40,395 nt of DNA from Bacteroidales bacterium. Its GTDB lineage: Bacteria > Bacteroidota > Bacteroidia > Bacteroidales > UBA932. The stretch covers positions 1-40,395 of the forward strand of contig JAFTDE010000015.1 of assembly GCA_017454335.1 (NCBI GenBank), in the 5' to 3' direction. The notes under the pieces are model-generated. The model saw only the letters and a program-made list of their open reading frames with translations. It was not told where the DNA came from and did no database searches. Positions 2,612-39,482 of this stretch are shown here, piece by piece (positions within the stretch are counted from its first letter, which is position 1; every line of letters starts with the position of its first letter). The translations under genes and the position numbers were made by a program.

Positions 2612-4000
2612 TCAGAATTTCCGGTCGTAGAGGGAGGTGGGGTAGGCGCCGTTGAAGCAGGCGGTGCAGAGGCCGGTGTGGCCGGCCGCTTCGAAAAGGG
2701 CCCGCTCGGAGAGGTAGTGCAGGGAGTCCGCGCCGATGTATGCGCAGATCTGCCGCTCGCTGTGATCAGATCCGATCAGCTGGTCCCGCGAGGCGGTGTC
2801 GATCCCGTAGAAACAGGGCCAGGCGTACTTGGGGCTGGCTATCAGCATGTGAACCTCGGTCGCCCCGGCGTCCCGCAGCATCCGGACGATCTGCCGGGAC
2901 GTGGTTCCCCGGACGATCGAGTCGTCGACCAGGGCGATGCGCCGGCCGTGCACGATGCTGCGCACCGGAGAGAGTTTCATCCGCACGCCGACATCCCGCA
3001 TCGACTGGTCCGGCTGGATGAAGGTCCGCGCTACATACATGTTCTTCACCAGGCCCGTTTCCAGGGGGAGACCGGCTGCCTCGGCGTATCCGACGGCGGC
3101 GCTCATGCTCGATTCGGGCACATTGACGACGATGTCGGCGGGGACGGGGTGCTCTTCAAACAGCAGGCGGCCCGTCCGTTTGCGGAAAGCATGGACGCCG
3201 ATTCCCTCGATGACGCTGTCGGGGCGCGCGAAGTAGATGTACTCCATGGCGCACATCCGCCGTTCGGCGTGCCGGGAATGCCGGAAGGACTGCAAGCCTT
3301 CCGGCCCGATCACCACCAGTTCCCCGGGGGCGATGTCCCGCTCGAATCCGGCACCCAGGGCATCCAGGGCGCAGGTTTCGCTGGCGATGACGTAACCTCC
3401 GCCGAGGCGCCCGATGGACAGGGGGCGGAATCCGTATTTGTCCCGGAAGGCATACAGCCTGCCGTCCGCAAGGACGACCGTGGAAAACGCGCCGTCCAGC
3501 TGGTTCGCGGCGGCCATGATCTTCTCCGTCCAGCCCTGGGACTTCGGTCCCGTCCCGATCAAATGGGCGATCAATTCACTGTCTGAAGTGGACGAAAACA
3601 GGTGTCCGAGGCTCTCCAGCCGGGTTTTGATACTGGCGGCGTTGACGATATTCCCGTTGTGGGCCAGGGCAAAGCGTCCGGCGTGGCAGGCCAGGAGGAA
3701 GGGCTGGATGTTTTCCATGCCGCCCACGTCCGTCGTGGGATAGCGGACATGCCCGATGCAGGTACAGCCTTCCAGTCCGGCCAACGCCCTTTCCGAAAAC
3801 ACATCCTTGACCAGCCCGGCCCCCTTGTGGACCTGCAGCTGTCCGTCCGGACCCGCCATCGCCAGCCCGCAGGCCTGCTGGCCCCGGTGCTGGAGGGCCT
3901 GCAGGGCCAGGAAGGCGCTGCGGGACGCATCCCCGACGCCGTACAGGCCCAGCACGCCGCACTCTTCGTGCAGTTCCTCGAAGCAGTGGCTACAGTCCAT
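2612..4000 (-). CDS. purF: Amidophosphoribosyltransferase (glutamine-PRPP amidotransferase)
   Basis: First committed step of purine synthesis: PRPP plus glutamine gives 5-phosphoribosylamine. 462 residues. A 13-residue propeptide (MDCSHCFEELHEE) precedes Cys14, the class II glutaminase nucleophile (C-G-V-L-G-L-Y-G). The PRPP loop ALVDDSIVRGTTS lies at ~355-367. Cysteines at ~250 (RRMCAMEY), 396 (AWPCFYG), 445 and 448 (CTAC) match the 4Fe-4S ligands of the Bacillus-type enzyme. Its start overlaps the dapL stop region by 11 nt, which suggests coupled translation at the end of the nitrogen operon. No clear terminator follows; a scrambled region does. Confidence 0.97.
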   Translation of the reverse strand: MDCSHCFEELHEECGVLGLYGVGDASRSAFLALQALQHRGQQACGLAMAGPDGQLQVHKGAGLVKDVFSERALAGLEGCTCIGHVRYPTTDVGGMENIQPFLLACHAGRFALAHNGNIVNAASIKTRLESLGHLFSSTSDSELIAHLIGTGPKSQGWTEKIMAAANQLDGAFSTVVLADGRLYAFRDKYGFRPLSIGRLGGGYVIASETCALDALGAGFERDIAPGELVVIGPEGLQSFRHSRHAERRMCAMEYIYFARPDSVIEGIGVHAFRKRTGRLLFEEHPVPADIVVNVPESSMSAAVGYAEAAGLPLETGLVKNMYVARTFIQPDQSMRDVGVRMKLSPVRSIVHGRRIALVDDSIVRGTTSRQIVRMLRDAGATEVHMLIASPKYAWPCFYGIDTASRDQLIGSDHSERQICAYIGADSLHYLSERALFEAAGHTGLCTACFNGAYPTSLYDRKF

Positions 4001-5195
4001 GGATGCACTCCTCTATCCGTTCCATCGCCTCAACGGTCCGTGCGCGGTCCATGAAGGCAGTGAGCCGGAAACAGGCCCGGCCCTCCGCGCCGAAACCCGA
4101 TCCCGGCGTGACAACGACGCCTGCCCGGTGGAGCAGCAGGTCGAAGAAAACCCAGTCGTCGATTCCGTCCGGGGTCCTCGCCCAGACATACGGGGCGTTC
4201 CGCCCGCCGGAAGCGTGCAGTCCCGCACGGACCAGGGCGTCCCGGATGATGGCGGCATTGCCCAGATAGTACAGGATGTTCTCCCGGATCCCGGCCTGGC
4301 CCTCGGGCGTATAGACGGCCAGGGCACCCCGTTGAGAAATGTACGAAGCCCCGTTGAACTTGCATCCCTGGCGGCGCTCCCACAGGGCGTTCAGGCCCAG
4401 CTGTCCCCCGCCCGGAATCCGGCCCTGGATTCCCTTCGGAACCACCGTGTATCCGCAGCGGACCCCGGTGAATCCGGCCGTTTTGGAGAAACTCCGGAAC
4501 TCGATCGCGCAGTCCCGCGCCCCCTCGATCTCGTAAATGGAATGCGGGATGTCCGGATCCTGGATGAAGGCTTCGTAGGCCGAATCGTACAGGATCAGCG
4601 AGCCGTGGCGCAGGGCGTAGTCCACCCAGGCCTTCAGCCTGTCGCGGGTGATGACCGCCCCGGTCGGGTTGTTGGGATAACACAGGTAGATCACGTCCAG
4701 CCCTTCTTCGGGAATCTCTCCCATGAAAGCGTCCGCCTCCCGGCAGGGAATGTAGCGGATCCGCCGGCCGTCCATGACGTTCGTATCAACATAGACCGGA
4801 TATACAGGATCGGGGATCCCGATGATGTTCTCCGCCGAAAACAGGTCCAGGATGTTTCCCAGATCGCTCTTCGCGCCGTCGCTGATGAACACTTCGTCCG
4901 TGTCGACGCGGATGCCCCGGGAGGCGTAATCCCCCCGGACCACCGCTTCGCGCAGCCATTCATACCCGTGCTCGGGACCGTATCCGTGGAAGCGTTCCTG
5001 CACGGCGAGGTCGTCCACCGCCTCGTGCATGGCCCGGGCGACAGGCGGCACGACCGGGAGCGTCACGTCCCCGATACCCATCCGGATGATGTCCGTTTCC
5101 GGAGACGCCTCGTGAAACGCGGCTACCCGGCGGCCGACTTCCTGGAACAGGTATCGGTGCTCCAGGCGGCCAAAACCTTCTTTGATCTGTACCAT
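3990..5195 (-). CDS. dapL: LL-diaminopimelate aminotransferase
   Basis: PLP enzyme that converts tetrahydrodipicolinate directly to LL-diaminopimelate using glutamate as amino donor, for lysine and peptidoglycan. 401 residues. The fold type I aminotransferase features are visible: MGIGDVTLP near the N terminus, FISDGAKSDLGN, CYPNNPTGA, and the PLP lysine K238 in SFSKTAGFTG followed by RCGY. The start lies 1 nt from the gltD stop and the 3' end overlaps purF, so it is inside the nitrogen operon. Its glutamate requirement fits placement after GOGAT. Confidence 0.95.
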   Translation of the reverse strand: MVQIKEGFGRLEHRYLFQEVGRRVAAFHEASPETDIIRMGIGDVTLPVVPPVARAMHEAVDDLAVQERFHGYGPEHGYEWLREAVVRGDYASRGIRVDTDEVFISDGAKSDLGNILDLFSAENIIGIPDPVYPVYVDTNVMDGRRIRYIPCREADAFMGEIPEEGLDVIYLCYPNNPTGAVITRDRLKAWVDYALRHGSLILYDSAYEAFIQDPDIPHSIYEIEGARDCAIEFRSFSKTAGFTGVRCGYTVVPKGIQGRIPGGGQLGLNALWERRQGCKFNGASYISQRGALAVYTPEGQAGIRENILYYLGNAAIIRDALVRAGLHASGGRNAPYVWARTPDGIDDWVFFDLLLHRAGVVVTPGSGFGAEGRACFRLTAFMDRARTVEAMERIEECIHGL

Positions 5196-5196
5196 G

Positions 5197-6543
5197 TTAC
5201 AATTGCTTCAGATAATCATCCACTTCCTTTGCGGCGGCGCGCCCGCCGGCCAGGGCCCGCACGACCAGGCTGGGACCCGTGAGCGCGTCTCCGGCGACAA
5301 ATACGTTCGGTCCGAACTGCGGATGCTGCGGGCGCAGGAAGCCCATGGCCAGCAGGACCATATCGCAGTCGATCACGCTCTTGCGTCCCGTGGGTTTCAT
5401 CTGCTGCCGTCCCCCGTCCGGGGCCGGCAGCCACTCCACCTCCTCAACCTCCACACCGCCCACACGGCCGGTCCCGTCATCGAGGAAACGGCAGGACGAG
5501 AGGCTCCAGCGCCGGTCGCAGCCCTCTTCGTGGCTGGTGCTGGTCTTGAGGATCTGGGGCCACATCGGCCAGGGCGTGGCGGGATTGTATCCCTCGGGCG
5601 GTTTGGGCATGATCTCAATCTGGGTGACGTTCAGGCAGCCCTGGCGGTGGCAGGTACCGATGCAGTCGCTGCCGGTATCCCCGCCGCCGATCACCAGGAC
5701 GTTCTTCCCCTTGGCGGAAACCGTTTCTTCCCGGCTGAACGTTTCGCCTGCGAGCCGGTGGTTCTGCTGGGTCAGCAGGTCCAGCGCGAAGTATACGCCC
5801 CTGAGTTCCCTTCCGGGGATGGGCAGGTCGCGCGCAACGGGCGTTCCGGTGGCGATGACATAAGCGTCAAAGCCCTCGGGAAGCTGTTCCGGATCCACGG
5901 TCACCCCGTATCGGAAGACGATGCCCTCCTGCTCCAGCACGGCGATCCTCCGGTCGATCACGTACTTGTCCAGCTTGAAGTTGGGGATGCCGTAGCGGAC
6001 CAGGCCGCCGGCGCGGGGCATCTTCTCCAGCACGGTGACGTCGTATCCCCGCCGGTTCAGCTGGACCGCAGCGGAGAGTCCGGCGGGGCCGGAACCGATG
6101 ACGGCGACTTTGCGGCCGTTGCGCGGGTAGCTATGCGGGTGGATGTATCCTTCGCGGAATGCGCGCTCGACGATCGAACACTCGTTCTCGCGTATGGTCA
6201 CGGGTGCATCCATGCTGTGGTTCAACACGCAACTCTTCTCGCAGAGTGCGGGACAGACGCGTCCGGTGAACTCCGGAAAATCGTTGGTCTGCGCCAGGAT
6301 CTTGTACGCAAGTTCCCACTTGCCCTTGCAGACGGCGTCCTGCCACTCGGGCTGGCGGTTGCCCAGAGGACAGGCCCAGTGGCAAAACGGTACGCCGCAA
6401 TCCATGCAGCGGGAAGCCTGGAGCATGCGGTCTCCCTCGTTGAGGGTCTGCTCTACTTCTCCGAAATTGGAGACTCTTTCAAATACCGGCCGGTGGCCGG
6501 CTTCCTGCCTCGGTATGGTCAGGAATGCATTGGGGTTTCCCAT
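5197..6543 (-). CDS. gltD: Glutamate synthase small subunit
   Basis: Passes electrons from NADPH to the large GOGAT subunit. 448 residues, slightly shorter than the usual ~470-490. The N-terminal Fe-S region has C46-x2-C49-x4-C54-x3-C58 and a second group RVCPALCEKSC at ~96-106. FAD-binding VIGSGPAGLSAA and NADPH-binding VIGGGDTGSDC follow. The C-terminal FAD motif is NVFVAGDALTGPSLVVRA. It lies 12 nt downstream of gltB and 1 nt upstream of dapL. Confidence 0.95.
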   Translation of the reverse strand: MGNPNAFLTIPRQEAGHRPVFERVSNFGEVEQTLNEGDRMLQASRCMDCGVPFCHWACPLGNRQPEWQDAVCKGKWELAYKILAQTNDFPEFTGRVCPALCEKSCVLNHSMDAPVTIRENECSIVERAFREGYIHPHSYPRNGRKVAVIGSGPAGLSAAVQLNRRGYDVTVLEKMPRAGGLVRYGIPNFKLDKYVIDRRIAVLEQEGIVFRYGVTVDPEQLPEGFDAYVIATGTPVARDLPIPGRELRGVYFALDLLTQQNHRLAGETFSREETVSAKGKNVLVIGGGDTGSDCIGTCHRQGCLNVTQIEIMPKPPEGYNPATPWPMWPQILKTSTSHEEGCDRRWSLSSCRFLDDGTGRVGGVEVEEVEWLPAPDGGRQQMKPTGRKSVIDCDMVLLAMGFLRPQHPQFGPNVFVAGDALTGPSLVVRALAGGRAAAKEVDDYLKQL

Positions 6544-6555
6544 ATTCCGTGTCCG

Positions 6556-11004
<4,449 letters not shown>

Positions 11005-11008
11005 AAGT

Positions 11009-13195
11009 CTAGTTGATAAAGAGGAGTTCGCGGTACTTGGGCAGCGGCCACAGGTCGTTGTCCACGATTTCCTCGAGCTTGTCGATGGGCCGGCGGATCG
11101 CGAACAGGCTCTCGGCTATCTCGTGATAGGCCTTCGCCTTCTCGTATTCGTTCTCGATGGTGTTGGCCTGCTTCCTGGCCTCGATCATCGCGGCCACGCC
11201 CTTCTGGAGCTGCTCGATCCTGTGCGAGATCTTTTCGATGAGGGTGATGGTCACGGCCGCTTTTTCCTGGTAGGAATCGGGGAAGTTTTCCTTCATCATG
11301 GACAGGTTCCTGAGCAAGGTGTTCTGGTACGCAAGCGCAGCCGGAATGATGTGGTTGATGGCCATGCGGCCCATCACGCGGGACTCTATCTGCACCTTCT
11401 TGGTGTACATCTCCCACTTGACCTCATTCCGCGCCTCGAGCTCCTTCGGGGAGTAGATGCCCAGCGAGGTGAACATTTCAATGGAAGCGGGCTTCGTGAA
11501 GGATTTGATCATCTCCGGGACGCTGGTCTCGGTGTCCAGTCCGCGGCGGGCGGCTTCCTCCTTCCACTCATCCGTGTATCCGTTGCCGTCGAAGCAGACG
11601 ACGTCGATGATCGAGCGGATGATGGGCTTGAGCGTATCCATCACGGCGATCTCCAGGGCCTTGCCGGAGGCGAGCTCCTTGTCGAGGGCTTTCTTGAAAA
11701 CGAGCAGCTGTTCGGCTACGGCTCCGCTGAGCGCAGTCATTGCGCCGGCGCAGTTGGCCGAGGAGCCTACCGCGCGGAACTCGAAGCGGTTGCCGGTGAA
11801 GGCGAAAGGCGAGGTGCGGTTGCGGTCGGTGTTGTCCACGAAAATCTCCGGAATCTCCACGATGCCCACGGAGGTGCCCTTCTTGCCGGCGATCTCGATC
11901 GGGGTGCCGGAAGGCAGTTCGAGGAGCTTGTGCAGCACGTCCGTCATCGTACGGCCGAGGAAGGCGGAGACGATGGCGGGCGGGGCCTCGTTGGCGCCGA
12001 GCCGGTGGGCGTTGGTCGCCGTCGCGATGCTGGCGTTCAGCAGGGCGTTGTGCGTCTGCACGGCGGCCAGGATGTTCACGAAGAAGGTGACGAACTGGAG
12101 GTTGCCGGCCGCATCCTTCCCGGGTGCCAGCAGCAGCGTGCCGGTGTCGGTGCCCAGCGACCAGTTGTTGTGCTTGCCAGATCCGTTGATGCCGTCGAAG
12201 GGCTTCTCATGCAGCAGCACCACGAAACCGTGTTTGCGCGCGACCTTGTTCATGATGTTCATGATCAGCTGGTTCTGGTCGTTGGAGAGGTTGCACTCCC
12301 CGAAAATCGGGGCCAGTTCGAACTGGTTCGGAGCGACTTCGTTGTGGCGGGTTTTCAGGGGAATGCCCAGCTTGTATCCCTCGAATTCAAGGTCTTTCAT
12401 GAAGGCGGCGACGCGGCTTGGAATGGCCGCGAAGTAGTGGTCTTCCAGCTGCTGGTTCTTGGAGGAGGCATGCCCCATCAGGGTACGGCCGGTCAGCATC
12501 AGGTCGGGCCGGGCGGCGTACAGGTCCTCGTCCACCAGGAAGTATTCCTGTTCCCAGCCCAGGTAGGAATGCACCTTGGAGACTTTGGGATCGAAGAGCT
12601 TGCAGATCGGTACCGCGGCATCGGAAACGGCCTTCAGGGCTTTCTTGAGCGGGGTCTTGTAGTCCAGCGCCTCGCCGGTGTAGGAGATGAACACCGTCGG
12701 GATGCACAGGGTGTCGTCCTGGATGAAGACGGGCGAGGTGGGATCCCAGGCGGTATAGCCGCGGGCTTCGAAGGTGGCGCGGATGCCGCCGCTGGGGAAG
12801 GACGAGGCGTCCGGCTCCTGCTGGATCAGAGACTTGCCGTTGAAGGCCTCGATCATGCCGCCCTTGCGGTCGTATTCCATCAGGGAGTCGTGCTTCTCGG
12901 CGGTCACTTCCGTCAGGGGCTGGAACCAGTGCGTGATGTGGGTGACGCCGTGGGCGAGCGCCCATTCTTTCATGCCCTCCGCCACCTTGTCGGCCGTGGA
13001 GAGATCGAGCGGATGTCCGTTGTCGATACAGTCAACCAGGGCATCGTAGGTCTTGACATCAAGATACTTGCGCATCTTCTCGCGGTTGAACACCAGCTCG
13101 CCGAAATAGGCCGAAGGCCGCTCCGCGGGAGCCGTCACGTCCAACGCCCTCTTCTTGAAGGCGTCCTGGACGACATCGAATCTAAGCTTGCTCAT
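11009..13195 (-). CDS. glnN: Glutamine synthetase type III
   Basis: ATP-dependent synthesis of glutamine from glutamate and ammonium. From the ATG at 13195 (MSKLRFDVVQ) it has 728 residues, matching the ~729 of the Bacteroides GSIII family. A longer frame upstream only reads through asnB. Family segments are visible: THWFQPLTE, SGGIRATFEARGY, GWEQEYFLVD, TRHNEVAPNQFE, NGSGKHNNWS and NRTSPFAFTGNRFEFR. It lies 20 nt after asnB and 4 nt before gltB, so GS and GOGAT are made from the same transcript. Confidence 0.96.
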   Translation of the reverse strand: MSKLRFDVVQDAFKKRALDVTAPAERPSAYFGELVFNREKMRKYLDVKTYDALVDCIDNGHPLDLSTADKVAEGMKEWALAHGVTHITHWFQPLTEVTAEKHDSLMEYDRKGGMIEAFNGKSLIQQEPDASSFPSGGIRATFEARGYTAWDPTSPVFIQDDTLCIPTVFISYTGEALDYKTPLKKALKAVSDAAVPICKLFDPKVSKVHSYLGWEQEYFLVDEDLYAARPDLMLTGRTLMGHASSKNQQLEDHYFAAIPSRVAAFMKDLEFEGYKLGIPLKTRHNEVAPNQFELAPIFGECNLSNDQNQLIMNIMNKVARKHGFVVLLHEKPFDGINGSGKHNNWSLGTDTGTLLLAPGKDAAGNLQFVTFFVNILAAVQTHNALLNASIATATNAHRLGANEAPPAIVSAFLGRTMTDVLHKLLELPSGTPIEIAGKKGTSVGIVEIPEIFVDNTDRNRTSPFAFTGNRFEFRAVGSSANCAGAMTALSGAVAEQLLVFKKALDKELASGKALEIAVMDTLKPIIRSIIDVVCFDGNGYTDEWKEEAARRGLDTETSVPEMIKSFTKPASIEMFTSLGIYSPKELEARNEVKWEMYTKKVQIESRVMGRMAINHIIPAALAYQNTLLRNLSMMKENFPDSYQEKAAVTITLIEKISHRIEQLQKGVAAMIEARKQANTIENEYEKAKAYHEIAESLFAIRRPIDKLEEIVDNDLWPLPKYRELLFIN

Positions 13196-13215: not shown

Positions 13216-14883
13216 TTAATAGGCTTGGATATGGACGCCGGCGACCGCGCGGCCGCTGGGGTCGTTGAGGTTCTTGAAAGCGGCATCCCATTCGAGGGCT
13301 ATGGCCGTGGAACAAGCCACACTGGCTTCGCTGGGAACCGACAGTGCCGCGGAGTCGCTCGGAAACAGTTCCGAGAAAATGCTGCGGTAGTAATACTCTT
13401 CCTTGTTCTGGGGAGTATGGATGGGAAAGCGGTTGGCGGCATGGGCCATCTGCTCGTCGCTGACGGCTTCGGCCGTGACGCGCTTCAGCGTGTCGATCCA
13501 GGAGTAACCGACGCCGTCGGAGAATTGCTCCTTCTGCCTCCAGGCTATCTCTGACGGGATCAGGTCCGCACACGCCTCGCGGACGATCTTCTTCTCAATG
13601 GTCGTACCCGGGCACATTTTCGCGGCGGGATTCAGGCGCATCGCTACGTCCAGGAACTCCTTGTCAAGGAAGGGGACCCGTCCCTCGACGCCCCAGGCCG
13701 CGAGGCTCTTGTTGGCGCGCAGGCAGTCATAGAGGTGAAGCTTCGACAGCTTGCGCACGGTCTCATCGTGGAAGGCCCGTGCATCCGGCGCCTTGTGGAA
13801 GTACAGGTAGCCGCCGAAAACCTCGTCGGCACCTTCGCCGGAGAGCACCATCTTGATACCCATCGACTTGATGACGCGCGAGAGCAGATACATCGGCGTC
13901 GAGGCGCGGATGGTGGTGACGTCGTAAGTCTCCGTGTAATAGATTACGTCGCGTATCGCGTCCAGGCCTTCCTGGATGGTATAGTTGATCTCGTGGTGGA
14001 CGGTGCCGATGTGTCCGGCGACCAGGCGCGCCTTGTCGAGGTCCGGCGCACCTTTCAGCCCGACGGCGAAAGAGTGCAGCCGCGGCCACCAGGCGCGCGT
14101 CTTCGAGTCGTCCTCGATGCGCATTGCGCTGAACTTCTCGGCGATCGCCGAAATGACGGAGGAGTCGAGCCCGCCGGAGAGCAGCACGCCGTAAGGGACG
14201 TCGGACATCAGCTGGCGCTTCACCGCGGACTCCAGCGCAGCACGGAGCTGCGCCGGGTCGGCGGGGTTGTCCTTCACCTTGTCGTAGTCCGTCCATTCAC
14301 GGGTATACCACCGCTTCATGCCCGGTTCGCGGCTCCAGTAGCGGTGGCCGGGCAGGAAAGGCTCGTAGCGTTCACACTGACCTTCCAGGGCCTTCAGCTC
14401 GCTGGCGACATAAATCTTGCCGTCCGCATCATCGAAGCCGATGTAAAGGGGAATGACTCCGATGGGGTCACGGGCGATCAGGAAAGCATCTTTCTCCACG
14501 TCATAGAGCGCAAATGCGAAAATCCCGTTCAGTTCCTCCAGGAAATCCTGTCCTTTGTCCCGGTACAGGGCAAGGATGACCTCGCAGTCGCTGCCCGTAC
14601 GGAAGTCATATTTCCCGGCGTAACGCCGCCGGATCTCCTGATGGTTGTAGATTTCACCGTTCACCGTGAGGACCTGCCTGCCGTCGGGAGAGACAAGCGG
14701 CTGTCCGCCGGACTCCGGGTCCACGATGCTCAGGCGTTCGTGGGCCATGACGGCGCTCCCGCCGCACCAGATGCCGCTCCAGTCCGGCCCCCTGTGCCGG
14801 AGTTTGCGGCTCATTTCGAGAGCCTTCCGGCGCATTTCGTCAGACTGCTTCCCGACATTGAATATTCCGACTATGCCACACAT
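13216..14883 (-). CDS. asnB: Glutamine-dependent asparagine synthetase B
   Basis: Transfers the glutamine amide to aspartate with ATP. 555 residues. Cys2 of MCGIVGIF is the class II glutaminase nucleophile after Met removal. RLSIVD and NGEIYN lie in the glutaminase domain. The PP-loop SGGLDSS is at 236-242, followed by LSGEGADEVFGGY and the synthetase-domain motif GRVPFLDKEF. It is third in the operon, 15 nt downstream of amtB. Confidence 0.96.
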   Translation of the reverse strand: MCGIVGIFNVGKQSDEMRRKALEMSRKLRHRGPDWSGIWCGGSAVMAHERLSIVDPESGGQPLVSPDGRQVLTVNGEIYNHQEIRRRYAGKYDFRTGSDCEVILALYRDKGQDFLEELNGIFAFALYDVEKDAFLIARDPIGVIPLYIGFDDADGKIYVASELKALEGQCERYEPFLPGHRYWSREPGMKRWYTREWTDYDKVKDNPADPAQLRAALESAVKRQLMSDVPYGVLLSGGLDSSVISAIAEKFSAMRIEDDSKTRAWWPRLHSFAVGLKGAPDLDKARLVAGHIGTVHHEINYTIQEGLDAIRDVIYYTETYDVTTIRASTPMYLLSRVIKSMGIKMVLSGEGADEVFGGYLYFHKAPDARAFHDETVRKLSKLHLYDCLRANKSLAAWGVEGRVPFLDKEFLDVAMRLNPAAKMCPGTTIEKKIVREACADLIPSEIAWRQKEQFSDGVGYSWIDTLKRVTAEAVSDEQMAHAANRFPIHTPQNKEEYYYRSIFSELFPSDSAALSVPSEASVACSTAIALEWDAAFKNLNDPSGRAVAGVHIQAY

Positions 14884-14898: not shown

Positions 14899-16116
14899 TC
14901 AGTTGTAGCAGCTCTCGCCGTGTTCGTAGACGTCGAGTCCCTCGTCTTCCACGCGCGGCTCGACCCGCAGGCCGTGGATCTTCCTGATGCCGAAGAACAG
15001 GATGAATCCGCAGACGGCCGCCCAGAGGTCGATGACCAGGATGCCCAGGCACTGTACCCCGAAGAAATGCCATCCGCCGCCGTAGAGAAGGCCTCCGTCC
15101 GTGGCCAGCAGACCGGTCAGGATCGTGCCCAGGATGCCGCACACGCCGTGCACGGACGAAGCGCCCACCGGGTCGTCGATATGCAGTCCGTGATCGATGA
15201 ACTCGATGGCGAAGACCAGCACGATGCCGCAGAGGAATCCGATGACGACGGCGCCCCAGGGAGATACGACGTCGCATCCGGCCGTGATGCCGACCAGGCC
15301 GGCCAGGACGCCGTTGAGCGTCAGTGAGAGCGAGGGCTTGCCGTACTTGAGCCAGGTCAGGAACATGGTCGCGGTGCCGCCGGCCGCTGCAGCCAGGTTG
15401 GTGGTCAGGAAGACATGCGAAATGGCGTTGCGGTTCACTTCCCCGCTGGCGGCCAGCTGGCTGCCGGGGTTGAAGCCGAACCACCCGAGCCAGAGGATGA
15501 AGACCCCCAGCGCAGCCAGGGAAAGGCTGTGCCCGGGGATGGCCCGGCTCTTGCCGTCCCGGCCGTATTTGCCGCGGCGCGGACCCAGCGCGATCGCGCC
15601 GATCAGGGCGAGGACGCCGCCGACGCTGTGTACGATGGCACTTCCGGCGAAATCATGGAAGCCCAGGCCGGCGAGCCAGCCGCCTCCCCAGGTCCAGTGT
15701 CCCTCGACGGGATAGACGAAGAGCGAGATGAAGGCACTGTAGACCAGGTACATCGAGAACTTGGTCCGTTCCGCCATCGCACCGCTGACAATGGTCGCGG
15801 AAGTGGCGCAGAAAACGGTCTCGAAGATCAGGAATCCTTCGACGGGCAGCTCGCCCTTGTAGAAGGAGAGGTCACCCCAGTTGGGCGCGCCGATGAATCC
15901 GGCCCCGTCGCCGCCGAACATGAATCCGAAACCTACAAAGAAGAACAGCAGGGACCCCAGCATGAAGTCGACAAAGTTCTTCATCAGGATGTTGACGGTG
16001 TTCTTGCTGCGGGTGAATCCCGCCTCGCAGAGTGCGAATCCGGGTTGCATCCAGAAAACCAGCATCGCTGCAAGCAGCATCCAGACAGTATCGAGAGAAA
16101 TGGCTAATTCATTCAT
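14899..16116 (-). CDS. amtB: Ammonium transporter
   Basis: Inner-membrane ammonium channel, 405 residues, about 11 hydrophobic segments. Pore histidines are visible in DFAGSAIVHSVGG and DPVGASSVHGVCG, and the signature region reads LGWFGFNPGS. The gene follows glnK by 20 nt; the PII protein GlnK normally binds and closes this channel. An internal 74-bp segment (15301-15374) recurs exactly near 2500. There is no obvious signal peptide; the N terminus starts with the first membrane segment. Confidence 0.95.
   Translation of the reverse strand: MNELAISLDTVWMLLAAMLVFWMQPGFALCEAGFTRSKNTVNILMKNFVDFMLGSLLFFFVGFGFMFGGDGAGFIGAPNWGDLSFYKGELPVEGFLIFETVFCATSATIVSGAMAERTKFSMYLVYSAFISLFVYPVEGHWTWGGGWLAGLGFHDFAGSAIVHSVGGVLALIGAIALGPRRGKYGRDGKSRAIPGHSLSLAALGVFILWLGWFGFNPGSQLAASGEVNRNAISHVFLTTNLAAAAGGTATMFLTWLKYGKPSLSLTLNGVLAGLVGITAGCDVVSPWGAVVIGFLCGIVLVFAIEFIDHGLHIDDPVGASSVHGVCGILGTILTGLLATDGGLLYGGGWHFFGVQCLGILVIDLWAAVCGFILFFGIRKIHGLRVEPRVEDEGLDVYEHGESCYN
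15301..15374 (-). repeat. amtB segment duplicated at 2500-2573
   Basis: Identical over 74 bp to 2500-2573. In this location it is in frame within intact amtB, so this copy is the source. Confidence 0.95.
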
Positions 16117-16136: not shown

Positions 16137-16484
16137 TTACTTCCTGTCCCTCAGCACAGAATCCCCATGTTCGCCGGTGCGGATCGACCAGGTGTCGATC
16201 ACGTCGCTGACAAAGATGCGTCCGTCCCCGACTTCGCCCGTGTGGGCCTCGCGGAGGATGACATCGACGGCGGGCTGGACGAAAATGTCACGGCAGATGA
16301 TCGTCAGGGCGATGCGCTCGATGACGTCTGTGGAATACTGGACACCGCGGTAGATCCGCTCCTGCCGGCTCTGGCCGATGCCGTGGACGTCATGGTACTC
16401 GAACCAGTTGATGTCCGACTGCAGCAGGGCTTCTTTCACATCCTCGAACCTCGTTTTCCGGATGATGGCTTCAATCCTTTTCAT
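16137..16484 (-). CDS. glnK: PII nitrogen regulatory protein
   Basis: 115 residues. It starts MKRIEAIIRK as PII proteins do. The T-loop (~36-54) reads GIGQSRQERIYRGVQY with Tyr50 in the place of the usual modified tyrosine, but the following residues (STDVIERIALTII) differ from the enterobacterial pattern. The B-loop TGEVGDGRIFV and C-terminal IRTGE are conserved. It binds ATP/ADP and 2-oxoglutarate and should gate AmtB, its neighbour 20 nt downstream. It is the first structural gene behind the leader attenuator at 16527-16694. Confidence 0.94.
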   Translation of the reverse strand: MKRIEAIIRKTRFEDVKEALLQSDINWFEYHDVHGIGQSRQERIYRGVQYSTDVIERIALTIICRDIFVQPAVDVILREAHTGEVGDGRIFVSDVIDTWSIRTGEHGDSVLRDRK

Positions 16485-16526
16485 AATACACTACTATCTG
16501 TTGGTTTGACTGTTCCGCCCGGGCAT

Positions 16527-16557
16527 AAAAAAAGACCGGTCCTTTCGAACCGGTCTT
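16527..16557 (-). terminator. Attenuator terminator in the glnK leader
   Basis: In the minus-strand RNA a 9-bp stem (AAGACCGGT / ACCGGTCTT, 8-nt loop; bases 16532-16557) is followed by a U run. It lies after the leader ORF and 43 nt before glnK, so it would stop transcription of the operon unless prevented. Its 5' arm contains ACCGGTTC, able to pair with the leader loop at 16589-16595. Confidence 0.85.
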
Positions 16558-16577
16558 CTATTTATCTCCAGAAAAAA

Positions 16578-16694
16578 TCACCTTGTCCGACCGGCAAAAC
16601 AAGACACAAGATTATTATTCTGGGAAGCCTGGGAGCTCTCAGAACCATTCTGCTGCTGCTTGAAATTGCCGAATTGGAGGATCACGGTAATCAC
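16578..16694 (-). CDS. Gln/Asn-rich leader peptide of the nitrogen operon
   Basis: A 38-residue ORF from a GTG at 16694 to TGA at 16578; an in-frame TAG lies two codons upstream of the GTG. It contains 6 Gln and 5 Asn, including Q-Q-Q-N (codons at 16647-16658) and Q-N-N-N (16611-16622). It ends V-S-C-F-A-G-R-T-R. It sits just below a promoter and just above an intrinsic terminator, the layout of a transcription-attenuation leader. Ribosome stalling at Gln (or Asn) codons would leave the GCCGGTC segment free to pair with the terminator arm. The carAB leader shares its Gln/Asn density and its C-terminal sequence. Translation is inferred. Confidence 0.75.
   Translation of the reverse strand: MITVILQFGNFKQQQNGSESSQASQNNNLVSCFAGRTR
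16582..16603 (-). promoter_or_regulatory. Leader hairpin and candidate antiterminator strand (glnK)
   Basis: In the RNA, CTTGT (16603-16599) pairs with ACAAG (16586-16582), exposing GCCGGTC (16595-16589) in the loop. GCCGGTC can instead pair with GACCGGT of the terminator 5' arm (7 bp, one G-U). A ribosome reaching the stop codon at 16578 would cover this segment. The same arrangement occurs before carAB. Confidence 0.65.
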
Positions 16695-16714
16695 TTTCTA
16701 ACCTTTTTCTTTTG

Positions 16715-16746
16715 CGAATATATGCGATGTCAGACAAAAAAACAAG
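16715..16746 (-). promoter_or_regulatory. Promoter of the nitrogen operon leader
   Basis: Bacteroidetes-type elements on the minus strand: -7 box TATATTCG (16722-16715) with TTG 20 nt upstream (16745-16743). It would start RNA about 15 nt before the leader ORF. Confidence 0.6.
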
Positions 16747-16772
16747 AAATTTTTAAATTTTTTTATTTCTTG
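16736..16772 (-). terminator. Terminator of carAB-pyrG
   Basis: 8-bp stem CAAGAAAT (16772-16765) / ATTTCTTG (16750-16743), overlapping the pyrG stop codon, then a run of seven T on the minus strand. It overlaps the -33 element of the glnK promoter. Confidence 0.75.
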
Positions 16773-18400: not shown

Positions 18401-21400
18401 TTATGCGAATTCGTCCCAGCTCTTGACCGGAATCGTGTCGATGTCCACCGTGCAGAACGCGGTGATGAAGGCGACGGCCAGCCGGGCATTGGTGATCAGG
18501 GGGATGTTGAGGTCGATGGCCGCCCGGCGGATCTTGTACCCGTTCGACAGTTCGCGGGGCGAAAGGTCCTTGGGGATGTTGACCACCATGTCGATCTGAT
18601 GCCCGTGCAGCAGGTCCAGCGCCTGTGGTTTGTGTCCGGCATCGCTGGGCCAGTGCACCATCGTGTTGGGCACCCCGTTCCCCGTCAGGTAACGGGAAGT
18701 GCCGCTGGTCGCATAGATCCGGTAGCCGTGCGCGACCAGCAGGCGCGCCGCGCCCAGCATCTCCGCCTTCTGTTCCGCGGTACCCGTGGACAGCAGGATG
18801 TTCTTCCCGGGGATGCGCTGCCCCACGGCCAGCATCGATTCGAGTATGGTGCTGTTCACGTCGTCGCCGATGCAGCCGACCTCGCCGGTCGACGCCATGT
18901 CCACGCCCAGCACCGGGTCCGCCTTCTGCAGGCGGTTGAACGAGAATTGCGAAGCCTTGATGCCGACGCAGTCCAGGTCGAAGAGGTCCTTGGAGGGCGG
19001 ATCCGGGGATTCGCCCAGCATCACCTTGGTCGCCAACTCTACCAGATTGATCTTCAGCACCTTACTGACGAAGGGGAAACTGCGGCTGGCGCGCAGGTTG
19101 CATTCGATGACCTTGACCTCGTTGTCCTTGGCCAGGTACTGGATGTTGAAGGGACCGGAGATGTGCAGTTCCGCGGCGATCTTGCGGCTGATGCGTTTGA
19201 TGCGCCGCACCGTTTCGACATAGAGTTTCTGCGGCGGGAACTGGATCGTCGCGTCACCCGAATGCACGCCGGCGAACTCCACATGCTCGCCGATCGCATA
19301 GGCGATGATGTTGCCGTGGTCGGCGACGGCATCGAACTCGATCTCCTTGGCGTTCTCGATGAAGCGGCTGACCACGACCGGATGCTCCTTGGACACCTTG
19401 GCCGCCATCTGCAGGTAGCGTTCCAGCTCTTCTTCATTCGAGCAGACGTTCATCGCCGCGCCGGACAGCACGTACGAGGGGCGCACCAGGACGGGGAAGC
19501 CCACCTTTCCGATGAAGTTGGCGATGTCCTCGCGCGAGGTCAGTTCACCCCACTCCGGCTGGTCCACGCCGATGCGGTCCAGCATGGCGGAGAACTTCTT
19601 GCGGTCCTCCGCATTGTCGATATCCGTAGCGGACGTACCCAGCAGCGGCACGCCCCGGGCGGCCAGCCGGAGCGCCAGGTTGTTCGGGATCTGCCCGCCG
19701 GTCGACACCACCACGCCTTTCGGATGTTCCATCCCGATGACATCCAGGACCCGTTCGAAGGACAGCTCGTCGAAATACAGCCGGTCGCATACGTCGTAGT
19801 CGGTAGAGACGGTCTCGGGGTTGTAGTTGATCACGACGCTGCGGTATCCGTGGTCGCGGATGGTCTTGAGCGCCTGGACGCAGCACCAGTCGAATTCCAC
19901 GGAAGAGCCGATGCGGTAGGCGCCGGACCCCAGGACCACCACGCTCTCGCGCCCGTCCCCGTCCGGGACGACATCGCCGGCCGTGCCCTGATAGGTCAGG
20001 TAAAGATAATTGGTCGACGCCGGGAACTCTCCGGCCAGGGTGTCGATCTGCTTGACCACCGGGACGATGCCCTCGGCGATGCGCCGTTCGCGGATTGCGA
20101 GCGCATCCGCGGGGGCACGCCCGCCTGAGACGGCCCGGGCAATCTGGAAATCGGAGAAGCCGTAGACCTTGGCGCGCCGCAGCAATTCGCGGGGAAGCGC
20201 ATTCCCCTTCTGGCGGAGCTCGGCCGAGATGTGGATGATGTTCAGGAGTTTCAGCAGGAACCAGCGGTCGATCTGCGTCAATTCATGGATGCGGTCCACG
20301 CTGTACCCCGCCTGCATGGCCTCGCTGATGGCAAAGATGCGTTTGTCTGTGGGTTCCTTCAGGGCACGGTCCAGGTCGGCGAGGGGCAGGGGCTCATTCT
20401 CCACGAATCCGTGCATCCCCTGGCCGATCATACGGAGACCCTTCTGGATGGCTTCTTCGAAGGTCCTGCCGATGGCCATCACCTCTCCCACGGATTTCAT
20501 GCTGGAACCGATCTCGCGGTCCACGCCATGGAACTTGCCGAGGTCCCAGCGGGGAATCTTGCATACGACGTAATCCAGGGCAGGTTCAAAGAAGGCCGAG
20601 GTGGTCCGGGTCACGCTGTTCTTGAGCTCGAAGAGGCCCTTGCCCAGACCGAGCTTGGCCGCCACGAAGGCCAGGGGATATCCCGTCGCCTTCGAAGCCA
20701 GGGCCGAGGAACGGCTGAGCCGGGCGTTCACTTCGATCACCCGGTAGTCTTCCGAATCCGGGTCGAAGGCGTACTGGACATTGCACTCGCCGACGATGCC
20801 CAGGTGACGCACGATCCGGATGGCCTGTTCCCGGAGGAAGTGGTACTCGGCGTTCGTCAGGGTCTGCGACGGAGCGATGACGATGCTCTCGCCGGTATGG
20901 ATGCCCAGCGGGTCGAAATTCTCCATGTTGCAGACCGTGATGCAGTTGTCATAGGCGTCGCGGACGACTTCGTATTCGATTTCCTTCCAGCCCTTGAGGC
21001 TCTTCTCGACCAGAACCTGCGGCGAGAAGGAGAAGGACTTCTCCGCGAGGCGGACCAGCTGGTCCTCATCGTCGCAGAATCCCGATCCCAGACCGCCCAG
21101 GGCATAGGCCGAGCGGAGAATCACCGGATATCCCAGTTCGGCCGCAGCCGCCTTCGCCGCCTCCACGGAGGCGCAGGCCTCGCTCCGGATGGTCCGGATG
21201 TCGATCTCGTCCAGGCGCTCCACGAACAGTTCGCGGTCTTCCGTATCGATGATGGTCTGGACGGGGGTGCCCAGCACACGGACGCCGTATTTCTCCAGGA
21301 TGCCGGACTTGTACAGTTCGATGCCGCAGTTCAGCGCCGTCTGGCCGCCGAAGGAGAGGAAAATCCCGTCGGGACGCTCCTTGGCGATGACCTTTTCCAC

Positions 21401-22783
21401 GAAGGCCGGGGTCACGGGCAGGAAGTAGATCTTGTCCGCGACGCCTTCGCTGGTCTGGACCGTGGCGATGTTCGGGTTGATGAGGATGGTCCGCACGCCC
21501 TCTTCCCGCAGGGCTTTCAGGGCCTGCGATCCGGAATAGTCGAACTCGCCCGCCTCGCCGATTTTCAGGGCGCCGGATCCGAGCACCAGGACCGAGGCGA
21601 TATTTCCCGCCTCCGGTCTGGCGTCTCCCCGGGACAGGTGGCCGCTGACCGGAGGGCGGCCGACATTCTCCGCCGAATCCATCAGGACGACGAAGCGGTC
21701 GAAGAGGACCTCGGTATCCAGCGGGCCGCCGCTGGCCTCAGGGTGGAACTGGACGGAGAACCAGGGCATCGTTTCGTGCTCCAGTCCCTCGTTCGATCCG
21801 TCGTTCATATTGACCAGCAGGGGTTTCCACCCGGCCGGCAGCGTGCTGTCGTCCAGGGCGTAACCGTGGTTCTGGCTGGTGATGAAGCATTCCGTCGTGC
21901 CCGCCAGGCGGACCGGCTGGTTGTGTCCGCGGTGACCGTATTTGAGTTTGTGCACCCGGGCGCCGGCGGCGATACCCAGCAACTGATTGCCCAGACAAAT
22001 ACCCATGACCGGTTTGACGGGACGGCCCGCCTCCGCGGCCGCAAACCCCTCGTCCAGGACTTTCCGCAGGACGGCGACGGTCTCGCGGCACTGTTCGGGG
22101 TTGCCGGGGCCGTTGCTGAGGATGATGCCGTCGTAATCCAGGCCGGTATAATCGTAGTCCCAGGGAACCCGGATGACTTCGATGCCCCGGACCAGCAGGC
22201 AGCGGATGATGTTGTACTTGCACCCGCAGTCCACCAGGATGACTTTCTTCCTGGCTTCGCCTTCCGGAAGATAGTGGATGACCTGCCGGCAGGAGACCTC
22301 GGCGACGAAATTCTGGCTGCCGTAGTCCGCCTCGTCCGGACAGAGCTCCTCCTGTCCCTCCATGACGATACGGCCGCGCATGACGCCCTTCTCGCGGAGA
22401 ATCTTCGTCAGGGCGCGGGTATCGATGCCGGTCACCGCAGGAATGTCTTCACGCTTCAGCCAGGCGTCCAGGCTCTCCTCCGCATCCCAGTGGCTGTACT
22501 CGCGGCTGTAGTCCGCCACCACAAGACCCTGCGTATAGATGTGGCTGCCTTCGAAGAATTCCTCCAGTCCGTCTTCCTCCCGGACATGGGGCGGGACGCC
22601 GTAATTGCCGATCAGGGGGAAGGTCGACACCAGGATCTGCCCGGCGTAGGAAGGGTCGGTCAGACTCTCCGGGTACCCGGTCATCGCCGTGTTGAACACC
22701 ACCTCCCCAGCCGTATTCCTGGGGCTTCCGAATGCCGTCCCTTCGAAGCGGGAACCGTCTTCAAGGATTAAACATGCTTTCAT
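18401..22783 (-). CDS. carAB: Fused glutamine-dependent carbamoyl-phosphate synthase (CarA-CarB)
   Basis: One continuous 1,460-residue protein makes carbamoyl phosphate for pyrimidines and arginine. Residues 1-~370 are the CarA glutaminase (nucleophile Cys263 in MGICLGNQ, His347 and Glu349 in VQFHPEA). A linker of ~25 residues without any Met leads to the CarB part (~397-1460). That part has LGSGALKIGEAGEFDYSGSQ, two ATP-grasp halves (the second from SVVVLGSGAYRIGSSVEFDW) and a C-terminal MGS-like allosteric domain ending near VKSWDEFA. The CarB text is of the eukaryote-like type (INPNIATVQTSEG, SFGGQTALNCGIELYKSG). Start chosen at MKACLILEDG; ATG at 22789 is an alternative. The T run of the attenuator abuts the start. 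Separate subunits are the bacterial norm. Confidence 0.95.
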   Translation of the reverse strand: MKACLILEDGSRFEGTAFGSPRNTAGEVVFNTAMTGYPESLTDPSYAGQILVSTFPLIGNYGVPPHVREEDGLEEFFEGSHIYTQGLVVADYSREYSHWDAEESLDAWLKREDIPAVTGIDTRALTKILREKGVMRGRIVMEGQEELCPDEADYGSQNFVAEVSCRQVIHYLPEGEARKKVILVDCGCKYNIIRCLLVRGIEVIRVPWDYDYTGLDYDGIILSNGPGNPEQCRETVAVLRKVLDEGFAAAEAGRPVKPVMGICLGNQLLGIAAGARVHKLKYGHRGHNQPVRLAGTTECFITSQNHGYALDDSTLPAGWKPLLVNMNDGSNEGLEHETMPWFSVQFHPEASGGPLDTEVLFDRFVVLMDSAENVGRPPVSGHLSRGDARPEAGNIASVLVLGSGALKIGEAGEFDYSGSQALKALREEGVRTILINPNIATVQTSEGVADKIYFLPVTPAFVEKVIAKERPDGIFLSFGGQTALNCGIELYKSGILEKYGVRVLGTPVQTIIDTEDRELFVERLDEIDIRTIRSEACASVEAAKAAAAELGYPVILRSAYALGGLGSGFCDDEDQLVRLAEKSFSFSPQVLVEKSLKGWKEIEYEVVRDAYDNCITVCNMENFDPLGIHTGESIVIAPSQTLTNAEYHFLREQAIRIVRHLGIVGECNVQYAFDPDSEDYRVIEVNARLSRSSALASKATGYPLAFVAAKLGLGKGLFELKNSVTRTTSAFFEPALDYVVCKIPRWDLGKFHGVDREIGSSMKSVGEVMAIGRTFEEAIQKGLRMIGQGMHGFVENEPLPLADLDRALKEPTDKRIFAISEAMQAGYSVDRIHELTQIDRWFLLKLLNIIHISAELRQKGNALPRELLRRAKVYGFSDFQIARAVSGGRAPADALAIRERRIAEGIVPVVKQIDTLAGEFPASTNYLYLTYQGTAGDVVPDGDGRESVVVLGSGAYRIGSSVEFDWCCVQALKTIRDHGYRSVVINYNPETVSTDYDVCDRLYFDELSFERVLDVIGMEHPKGVVVSTGGQIPNNLALRLAARGVPLLGTSATDIDNAEDRKKFSAMLDRIGVDQPEWGELTSREDIANFIGKVGFPVLVRPSYVLSGAAMNVCSNEEELERYLQMAAKVSKEHPVVVSRFIENAKEIEFDAVADHGNIIAYAIGEHVEFAGVHSGDATIQFPPQKLYVETVRRIKRISRKIAAELHISGPFNIQYLAKDNEVKVIECNLRASRSFPFVSKVLKINLVELATKVMLGESPDPPSKDLFDLDCVGIKASQFSFNRLQKADPVLGVDMASTGEVGCIGDDVNSTILESMLAVGQRIPGKNILLSTGTAEQKAEMLGAARLLVAHGYRIYATSGTSRYLTGNGVPNTMVHWPSDAGHKPQALDLLHGHQIDMVVNIPKDLSPRELSNGYKIRRAAIDLNIPLITNARLAVAFITAFCTVDIDTIPVKSWDEFA

Positions 22784-22789
22784 AGGCAT

Positions 22790-22821
22790 AAAAAAAACCG
22801 ATCCTCTGCCCAGAGAACCGG
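22790..22821 (-). terminator. Attenuator terminator in the carAB leader
   Basis: RNA stem of 10 pairs including two G-U (CCGGTTCTCT, 22821-22812, with AGAGGATCGG, 22807-22798), 4-nt loop, then eight T (22797-22790). It ends directly at the ATG at 22789. Its 5' arm has the same CCGGTTC as the glnK attenuator. Confidence 0.88.
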
Positions 22822-22854: not shown

Positions 22855-22980
22855 CTATGTCCGTCCGGCCGGACATGACACACCCAACCAGGAATTGACC
22901 TGGGAGCGGTTCTGGTTATTCTGATGTCCGGAAGAACACCAGAGGGCACTCAGATAGTCACGTCCGAAGGAACTGCACAT
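22855..22980 (-). CDS. Gln/Asn-rich leader peptide of carAB-pyrG
   Basis: 41-residue ORF from ATG at 22980 to TAG at 22855. Residues 20-29 read Q-N-N-Q-N-R-S-Q-V-N, seven of ten being Gln or Asn. It ends V-S-C-P-A-G-R-T, nearly the same as the glnK leader peptide. It starts about 20 nt below a promoter and is followed by a terminator abutting carA. The product CarA uses glutamine, so Gln-codon stalling is a sensible control signal. Translation and regulation are inferred. Confidence 0.78.
   Translation of the reverse strand: MCSSFGRDYLSALWCSSGHQNNQNRSQVNSWLGVSCPAGRT
22857..22876 (-). promoter_or_regulatory. Leader hairpin and candidate antiterminator strand (carAB)
   Basis: In the RNA ATGTCC (22876-22871) pairs with GGACAT (22862-22857), leaving GGCCGGAC in the loop. 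GCCGGA can pair with TCCGGT at the base of the terminator 5' arm (6 bp, one G-U). A second candidate strand, AGAACCG (22913-22907), matches CGGTTCT of the same arm over 7 bp and lies in the Gln-Asn codons. Confidence 0.55.
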
Positions 22981-23002: not shown

Positions 23003-23033
23003 CAAATATAACAATAGATTTCTATAATGCAAC
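23003..23033 (-). promoter_or_regulatory. Promoter of the carAB leader
   Basis: Minus strand: -7 box TATATTTG (23010-23003), 19-nt spacer, GTTG (23033-23030) as -33 element. Close fit to the Bacteroidetes consensus. Confidence 0.7.
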
Positions 23034-39399: not shown

Positions 39400-39482
39400 G
39401 CGGCAGTGGTGAAATGGTAGACACGCTACTTTGAGGGGGTAGTGGGCGTTGGCCTGTGTGAGTTCGAGTCTCACCTGCCGCA
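39400..39482 (+). tRNA. tRNA-Leu (anticodon GAG)
   Basis: Acceptor stem GCGGCAG / CTGCCGC with discriminator A. D arm GTGAAATGGTAGACAC. Anticodon stem CTACT / GGTAG with loop TTGAGGG, giving GAG. Long class II variable arm and T arm GTGAGTTCGAGTCTCAC. The 3' CCA is not encoded. Confidence 0.95.

Follow-up and report, generated by a model that had tools for sequence, protein, structure and literature searches.

Ribosome-mediated attenuators of the trp, his, leu and ilv type, such as those of E. coli trp and his, act through a long antiterminator hairpin. Glutamine is the signal, and nitrogen genes are the targets, of the glnA RNA and Downstream-peptide riboswitches. Among other leaders, the LEU element of Actinobacteria provides a precedent for a pseudoknot associated with a leader peptide (PMC1262725), and the uORFC-8-2 leader of cysS in Rhodobacterales contains an upstream ORF with cognate codons, for which read-through has been proposed when the charged tRNA is scarce (PMC8632094). 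For Flavobacterium psychrophilum, 'strong clues' of leader-peptide attenuation have been reported (PMC9723704), and small ORFs of Bacteroides thetaiotaomicron have been called 'reminiscent of leader peptides' (PMC7366714). These two reports share the phylum and the general mechanism with the leader described here, and no glutamine/asparagine leader or nitrogen operon is named in the accessible portions of either (PMC9723704, PMC7366714).

The sequence of the present leader shares features with the trp/his type: a short ORF carries codons for the amino acid of the operon, an intrinsic terminator precedes the first gene, and the 5' arm of the terminator has a predicted alternative partner.

The leader and the nitrogen operon

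The window (the whole stretch of 40,395 nt that was analysed) contains a nitrogen operon on the minus strand. Its genes are P-II (glnK-like; 16137..16484; Pfam PF00543), the ammonium transporter gene amtB (14899..16116; PF00909), asnB for a glutamine-hydrolysing asparagine synthase (13216..14883; PF00733, PF13537), type III glutamine synthetase (GSIII; 11009..13195, with the start MSKLRFDVV; PF12437, PF18318), gltB for the large subunit of glutamate synthase (6556..11004; PF00310, PF01645), a gltD-like oxidoreductase (5197..6543; PF14691, PF07992), a class I/II aminotransferase (3990..5195; PF00155), and a purF-like amidotransferase (2612..4000; PF13522). We take the oxidoreductase to be gltD from its position, and the name purF-like is likewise our assumption. 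An earlier note on this DNA had placed an attenuator before an operon of GS, GOGAT, AmtB, and GlnK. That position is borne out, the genes from P-II to purF lying directly downstream, and asnB and the purF-like gene extend the content of the operon beyond those named there.

Directly upstream of the leader, on the same strand of the window, lies pyrG. From 22980 to 2612, carAB, pyrG, P-II, amtB, asnB, GSIII, gltB, the gltD-like gene, the aminotransferase gene and the purF-like gene are all on the minus strand. Five of them (carA, pyrG, asnB, gltB, and the purF-like gene) contain glutamine amidotransferase domains, and the stretch may therefore be regarded as a cluster, on one strand and with two leaders, of genes that make or use glutamine. 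Elsewhere in the window, a tRNA gene at 39400-39482 (plus strand) is the only Rfam match at gathering score. In Prevotella ruminicola, amtB, glnK, and asnB belong to the genes with the strongest response to ammonium, their transcripts changing 69-, 46-, and 38-fold, respectively, with ammonium supply; the accessible text of the report is inconsistent as to whether low or high ammonium is the inducing condition (PMC5552732).

The leader lies between the P-II gene and pyrG, on the minus strand, from 16746 to 16527. A candidate promoter (16715..16746), read from the sequence, consists of CTTG at -33 and TATATTCG at -7 (16722-16715) with a spacing of 20 nt. The Bacteroidetes -7 promoter consensus is TAnnTTTG. 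The window copy misses it by one base, though an exact match occurs no more than 60 nt upstream of the ORF in 18 of 30 leaders, against 1.0 expected from shuffles. The ORF, MITVILQFGNFKQQQNGSESSQASQNNNLVSCFAGRTR, has 38 codons (16578..16694), with a GTG start at 16694 and the stop at 16578, and relatives carry such leaders too. Six Gln and five Asn codons make up 11 of the 38; the ORF is thus enriched in codons for amino acids made by the operon, in which GSIII and asnB follow downstream. A first cluster, QQQN, is at 16647..16658, and a second, QNNN, at 16611..16622, ending 16 nt before the CCGG core of the putative antiterminator element. This element, GCCGGTC (16589..16595), lies within the last codons of the ORF and is complementary to GACCGGT (16555-16549) in the 5' arm, AGAAGACCGGTTC, of an intrinsic terminator (16527..16559; -19.9 kcal/mol), the remainder of which is the loop GAAA, the 3' arm, and a T run. 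The terminator stands between the ORF and the first gene, P-II, whose start is 42 nt from the T run. The ORF with its two codon clusters, the element, and the complementary arm are all present as the earlier note had read them, on the minus strand.

Eleven sequences of the window group were aligned (alignment A1; L034, nearly identical to L033, was left out). The 11-bp helix of the terminator is 99.2% paired across them, a level reached by none of 500 shuffles. Its covariation score is also reached by none of 500 shuffles, and three pairs are changed on both sides (2 of 500 shuffles).

A second leader, which is not part of the earlier claim, was found by scanning before the fused carA-carB carbamoyl-phosphate synthase gene (18401..22789; PF00988, PF00117, PF02786), also on the minus strand. 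Its ORF, MCSSFGRDYLSALWCSSGHQNNQNRSQVNSWLGVSCPAGRT, occupies 22855..22980, its -7 promoter box, TATATTTG, 23003..23010, and its antiterminator-like element, GGCCGGAC, 22863..22870 (in a register chosen by hand, the script preferring another); its terminator (22790..22821; -14.2 kcal/mol) adjoins the start of carA. The scan threshold is not reached by two recognisable relatives, L375 and L376; they keep the arrangement and a common stretch, RDYL(S/T)ALWCSSGHQ, with fewer Gln/Asn residues (4 and 5, respectively). Given these lower numbers, the carAB leaders may sense something further.

Recurrence and distribution of Gln/Asn leaders

The P-II loci came from 31 of 149 and 79 of 398 family genomes with P-II, from 30 loci across the order, and from the best 80 of 501 named-contig relatives. 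The near relatives of the window are rumen Bacteroidales assemblies; P-II is 97% identical in L032, a record from water-buffalo rumen, and the window itself most probably comes from an organism of this kind. A first scan required an ORF in which 6 or more of 15 residues are Gln/Asn, with a terminator after it; 25 of the 188 loci (duplicates included) have such a leader directly before P-II. All 25 are family or named-contig loci, and none of the 30 loci taken from across the order has the leader. Directly upstream of P-II it is absent from 163 of the 188, of which two (L161 and L195) have a leader one gene further up. There, the first gene after the leader, ahead of P-II, encodes an outer-membrane-like protein; for L161, whose protein was compared with Pfam, the match to Gcw_chp is weak (23.3 bits; cut-off, 24). 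In P. ruminicola, glnK and amtB are clustered with PRU_1977, which is presumed to be a transmembrane protein (PMC5552732).

A stricter scan (7 Gln/Asn in 15) of both strands of 404 sequences (1,548,544 bases) gave 31 non-identical sites with such an ORF and a terminator, some of them near duplicates. Thirty of the 31 precede nitrogen genes, a proportion that partly reflects selection, since most loci had been fetched around these genes. The downstream gene is P-II at 21 sites (including L235 by inference, as its contig ends inside P-II), an outer-membrane-like gene ahead of P-II at two, asnB at four, GSIII at two, and carA at one; the remaining site has an unrelated gene context and a weak terminator. 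Less bias attaches to a pattern search that covered 398 whole genomes of the family and set no condition on the downstream gene. Matches were found in 30 genomes, against 7 for the reversed control pattern (our own count). A Gln/Asn leader frame, as judged by reading the printed peptides, is present in 15 of the 30, at 16 sites, and these precede P-II (nine, one of them inferred at a contig end), the outer-membrane-like gene and P-II (two), asnB (four), and GSIII (one). Across the order, 17 of 295 genomes match (reversed control, 7), among them that of the window itself; beyond it, one match is convincing on reading, namely L248 in genome G374, which belongs to another family and in which the leader precedes GSIII.

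The distribution is patchy. The leader is not directly upstream in 54 of the 58 asnB loci scanned, the other four being positive. At GSIII it is missing directly upstream in 90 of 92 loci, one of the 90 being a poor borderline match (L291); this set, which covers part of the listed GSIII places, comprises 30 listed loci, 60 fetched stretches, and L222 and L248, both found by pattern. The three matches obtained at a loose threshold are L222, L248, and the poor L291, and the idea that GSIII is a general carrier of the leader was rejected on these numbers. At the scan threshold, 28 of 29 carA loci lack the leader, the single positive being that of the window.

In 42 of 175 distinct regions upstream of P-II, an ORF of any kind precedes a terminator. 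Across the 175, the amino acid pair that most often reaches 8 of 15 residues is Gln+Asn, in 17 regions, followed by Asn+Ser in 12. At 6 of 15 its lead is small (Gln+Asn 21, Leu+Asn 18, Ile+Arg 17).

Some loci deserve separate mention. In genome G595, a near copy of the P-II leader (L220) lies directly before asnB inside the operon, and a one-base difference in its Asn run alters the end of the ORF. In G000, a scan of the 450 nt upstream of a second GSIII gene (C53:118634-119110; L284) revealed no Gln/Asn leader. Seven leaderless loci of the Prevotella type (L045, L053, L066, L084, L087, L095, and L104) share similar short translations upstream of P-II, of the kind FNNQ/FNKQ... or resembling CRNFAPESFQ, which hint at a different conserved DNA element at that place.

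Pairing of the element with the terminator

In the window, GCCGGTC and GACCGGT form 7 contiguous bp, one of them G-U. Because GACCGGTC is self-complementary, the window copy alone cannot tell with which terminator arm the element pairs, and it is the relatives that decide for the 5' arm. In 33 leaders, the terminator was located and the best complementarity between the ORF end and the 5' arm was determined. Element and arm change together from group to group: GCCGGTC/GACCGGT in the window, ACCAGTC/GGCTGGT in L048, GGACCGGTC/GGCCGGTCC in L159, GGACCAG/CTGGTCC in L161, TCAGTC/GGCTGA in L190, and CCAGCCT/AGGCTGG in L248.

When arms are swapped among 29 representatives (of the 33 leaders, near duplicates being removed), the native pairing energy with the 5' arm is reached by 4 of 20,000 permutations. 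With one leader per group, it is reached by 56 of 20,000 for a fixed representative, and by 102, 392, and 97 of 20,000 for three random choices. Pairing with the 3' arm was tried and rejected, the corresponding figures of 5,768 and 6,348 of 20,000 indicating no preference. A control stretch further upstream, containing Gln/Asn codons, pairs with its own 5' arm at a mean of -9.0 kcal/mol, compared with -12.9 for the element. The control out-pairs the element in 3 of 14 groups (L048, L216, and carW) and about equals it in L212; in some leaders, AAC CAG, encoding Asn-Gln, resembles the element by coincidence.

A second alignment across groups (A2) contains 18 rows anchored by hand on the CCGG, CCAG, or TCAG core, and thus leans towards pairing. 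Left out of it were near duplicates, L222 and L376, which offer no unambiguous register near the stop, and L375, a relative of carW. In A2, both partners have changed in five of the nine pairs, a number that 20 of 500 shuffles reach, and 1 of 500 attains the covariation score of this hand-anchored pairing. Related rows inflate counts of this kind.

Within the window group (A1), the CCGG core is invariant and ungapped relative to the stop region. One of the seven pairs is mismatched in 6 of the 11 sequences, so that contiguous pairing in the register of the window is 5 bp in L032, L035, L036, L037, and L144 and 4 bp in L038. The script finds 6 or more contiguous bp in 32 of the 33 leaders, its best register differing from the preferred one in L032, L035, L036, L037, L041, L144, carW, L222, and L376. 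The isolated duplex of element and arm (-13.4 kcal/mol) is weaker than the terminator (-19.9 kcal/mol), and antitermination must therefore win kinetically or be helped.

The earlier note had proposed examining covariation and codon conservation in relatives, and had named an ORF or Gln codons unconserved in relatives as the result that would speak against it. The outcome is otherwise: the Gln/Asn ORF, the terminator, and the matching element are repeatedly found together before P-II, asnB, GSIII, and carA, the terminator covaries clearly, and the pairing of the element with the 5' arm is maintained by compensatory changes, as indicated by the swap test and A2.

These results bear on the possibility that the hairpin merely terminates transcription of pyrG, which lies upstream, or of a small RNA, and that the Gln/Asn ORF and the complementarity are due to chance. 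The position of pyrG next to the leader favours such an explanation, as do several sub-threshold Rfam matches to sRNA families. It is nevertheless very improbable, because the leader persists in five loci in which pyrG was not found in the fetched flank (L035, L036, L037, L041, and L142), occurs before asnB, GSIII, and carA as well, and retains its pairing against swaps.

The core of the element ends 10 nt before the stop codon in the nine window-group leaders tabulated, although in five of them this distance rests on A1 and is not an independent fit. The last clustered Gln/Asn codon precedes the core by 16 nt in seven of these nine and by 19 nt in two, the ORFs ranging from 27 to 38 codons. 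In the whole table of 30 leaders, in which the core was placed by hand for L032, L035, L036, L041, L144, L222, and carW, the distance from the core end to the stop is 9-17 nt for 25 and 2-7 nt for five; in L212, L221, and L248 the distance is just 2-3 nt.

The small hairpin that the earlier note had drawn as displaying GCCGGTC (S1; 16581..16604, minus strand) fares less well. In the 11 window-group sequences 93.6% of its cells are paired, with covariation not above that of shuffles. A hairpin of this type appears in the unconstrained fold of 6 of 24 leaders, against 2.2 expected, five of the six being from the close group of the window, and it is missing from the unconstrained minimum-energy fold of the window copy itself. 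The pseudoknot geometry had seemed widespread when the element was forced to be unpaired, and was downgraded on the count of 6 of 24 obtained without the constraint. An element displayed in a hairpin loop, i.e. a pseudoknot antiterminator, is weakly supported.

Proposed attenuation and known systems

The leader peptides fall into groups that look unrelated: FKQQ...SQNNNAVSCLAGRIR near the window, LNNQNNNQQNQNNN in L048, QNQNQNQV in L007, and QQNNNNSNNNQNQNNN in L159. Beyond the Gln/Asn content, the peptide is not conserved among relatives. In a codon comparison of 14 pairs, purifying selection on the peptide was not detected (nonsynonymous/synonymous ratio 1.39), and Gln/Asn positions are kept only slightly better than others (281 of 440 versus 376 of 644). 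This suits a leader in which only the codon content matters, and is no independent proof of translation. Leader Asn codons are 41 AAT and 15 AAC, compared with 58 AAT and 221 AAC in the genes of the window. The use of AAT as a slow codon was considered as an explanation and rejected, since the other leader codons also tend to end in A or T (117 of 215 G/C-ending, versus 4930 of 5953).

The RNA outside the element and the terminator differs between groups, as judged by eye, while the Gln/Asn codons recur. This argues against a ligand- or protein-binding RNA, such as a glutamine riboswitch, that would control the terminator with the ORF being incidental. Glutamine riboswitches are known elsewhere, which lends the idea some plausibility. 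The single tRNA is, however, the only match in the window at the Rfam gathering score, the 10 sub-threshold matches in 16400-16900 include no glutamine riboswitch family, and the T-box covariance model has no match in the window at gathering score or near the leader below it. An RNA of this kind is hardly to be expected here.

The earlier note had tied the operon to charged tRNA-Gln. The Gln codons, recurring before nitrogen genes, agree with this. Asn codons are as prominent as Gln codons, and the leader is therefore better described as a probable Gln/Asn sensor. A glutaminyl-tRNA synthetase scores above the cut-off in 11 of 12 leader-bearing genomes (the assembly of the window itself is 79% complete) and GatB in none of the 12, so that tRNA-Gln should be charged from free Gln.

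Very probably, then, charged tRNA-Gln and tRNA-Asn are sensed here by ribosome-mediated transcription attenuation; that the ORF is translated, where the ribosome stands, and in which direction the system responds are inferred. As RNA polymerase transcribes the leader, a ribosome would follow through the Gln/Asn-rich ORF. With both amino acids plentiful, it would arrive at the stop codon with its footprint over the element, whose core lies 10 nt before the stop; the terminator would then form, and transcription would end before the P-II gene. With Gln or Asn short, the ribosome would stall at QQQN or QNNN before reaching the element, and the free element would pair with the 5' arm, allowing read-through into the operon and thus ammonium uptake and the synthesis of Gln, Asn, and Glu. 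From the usual size of the ribosome footprint, a ribosome at the stop should cover the element, and one on the first cluster should leave it free. The scheme predicts a leader RNA of about 180 nt, with its 3' end at 16527-16535 of the window, when Gln and Asn are plentiful.

A translation-sensing attenuator might instead respond to the general state of translation, or to arrest by the nascent peptide, and not to the charging of tRNA-Gln and tRNA-Asn. The carAB leaders, with a common stretch and few Gln/Asn residues in the relatives, favour this alternative; moreover, the element would also be free with no ribosome at all, and mere loss of translation should then switch the operon on. Against it, Gln/Asn enrichment is common to the unrelated-looking peptides before P-II, asnB, and GSIII, and the downstream genes are concerned with making or using Gln and Asn. 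We regard it as unlikely.

The attenuator sensing tRNA-Gln and tRNA-Asn may also be part of something wider, which we put forward tentatively: a mobile regulon, in which one type of Gln/Asn leader has moved among P-II-amtB, asnB, GSIII, and carAB within one Bacteroidales family (and once outside it), operating as an OR gate on the two charged tRNAs through a compact pseudoknot that forms when a hairpin loop at the ORF end captures the 5' arm of the terminator, so that the termination of translation is the off signal.

On the sequence evidence, a group of rumen-type Bacteroidales probably reads the supply of Gln and Asn through such leaders and turns nitrogen-assimilation genes on when it is short. 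If so, ribosome-mediated attenuation would operate on the two amino acids with amide nitrogen, glutamine and asparagine, and nitrogen genes in these bacteria would be controlled without a dedicated nitrogen regulator protein. Uptake by P-II-amtB, assimilation by GSIII/GOGAT, and asparagine synthesis would come under the charging of two tRNAs, and carbamoyl-phosphate synthesis would join the same control through the second leader.

The earlier note knew of no described glutamine leader, and our searches agree: no paper on a glutamine or asparagine leader peptide was found in the open-access literature, a scope from which subscription journals are mostly absent and which does not imply absence from print. 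In a term search of the main text of a survey of premature terminators (PMC2965389), neither glutamine nor asparagine is mentioned.

The general mechanism is already known, being of the trp/his kind. Unlike that type, the present leader is predicted to sense Gln/Asn and serves P-II-amtB, GSIII, asnB, and carAB, and in place of the long antiterminator hairpin it has a short element, possibly displayed in a hairpin loop, whose core ends 9-17 nt short of the stop codon in 25 of 30 leaders. The glnA RNA and Downstream-peptide riboswitches bind their ligand directly, and the leader has no Rfam match to them. The LEU element acts on a ribosome-binding site, whereas the target here is an intrinsic terminator (PMC1262725), and uORFC-8-2 differs in its amino acid (cysteine), its gene (cysS), its lineage (alpha-proteobacteria), and its RNA (PMC8632094). 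As far as the searches of the open-access literature show, the novelty lies in the two amino acids predicted to be sensed, in the nitrogen genes served, in the lineage and, perhaps, in a short antiterminator of the loop-to-arm kind.
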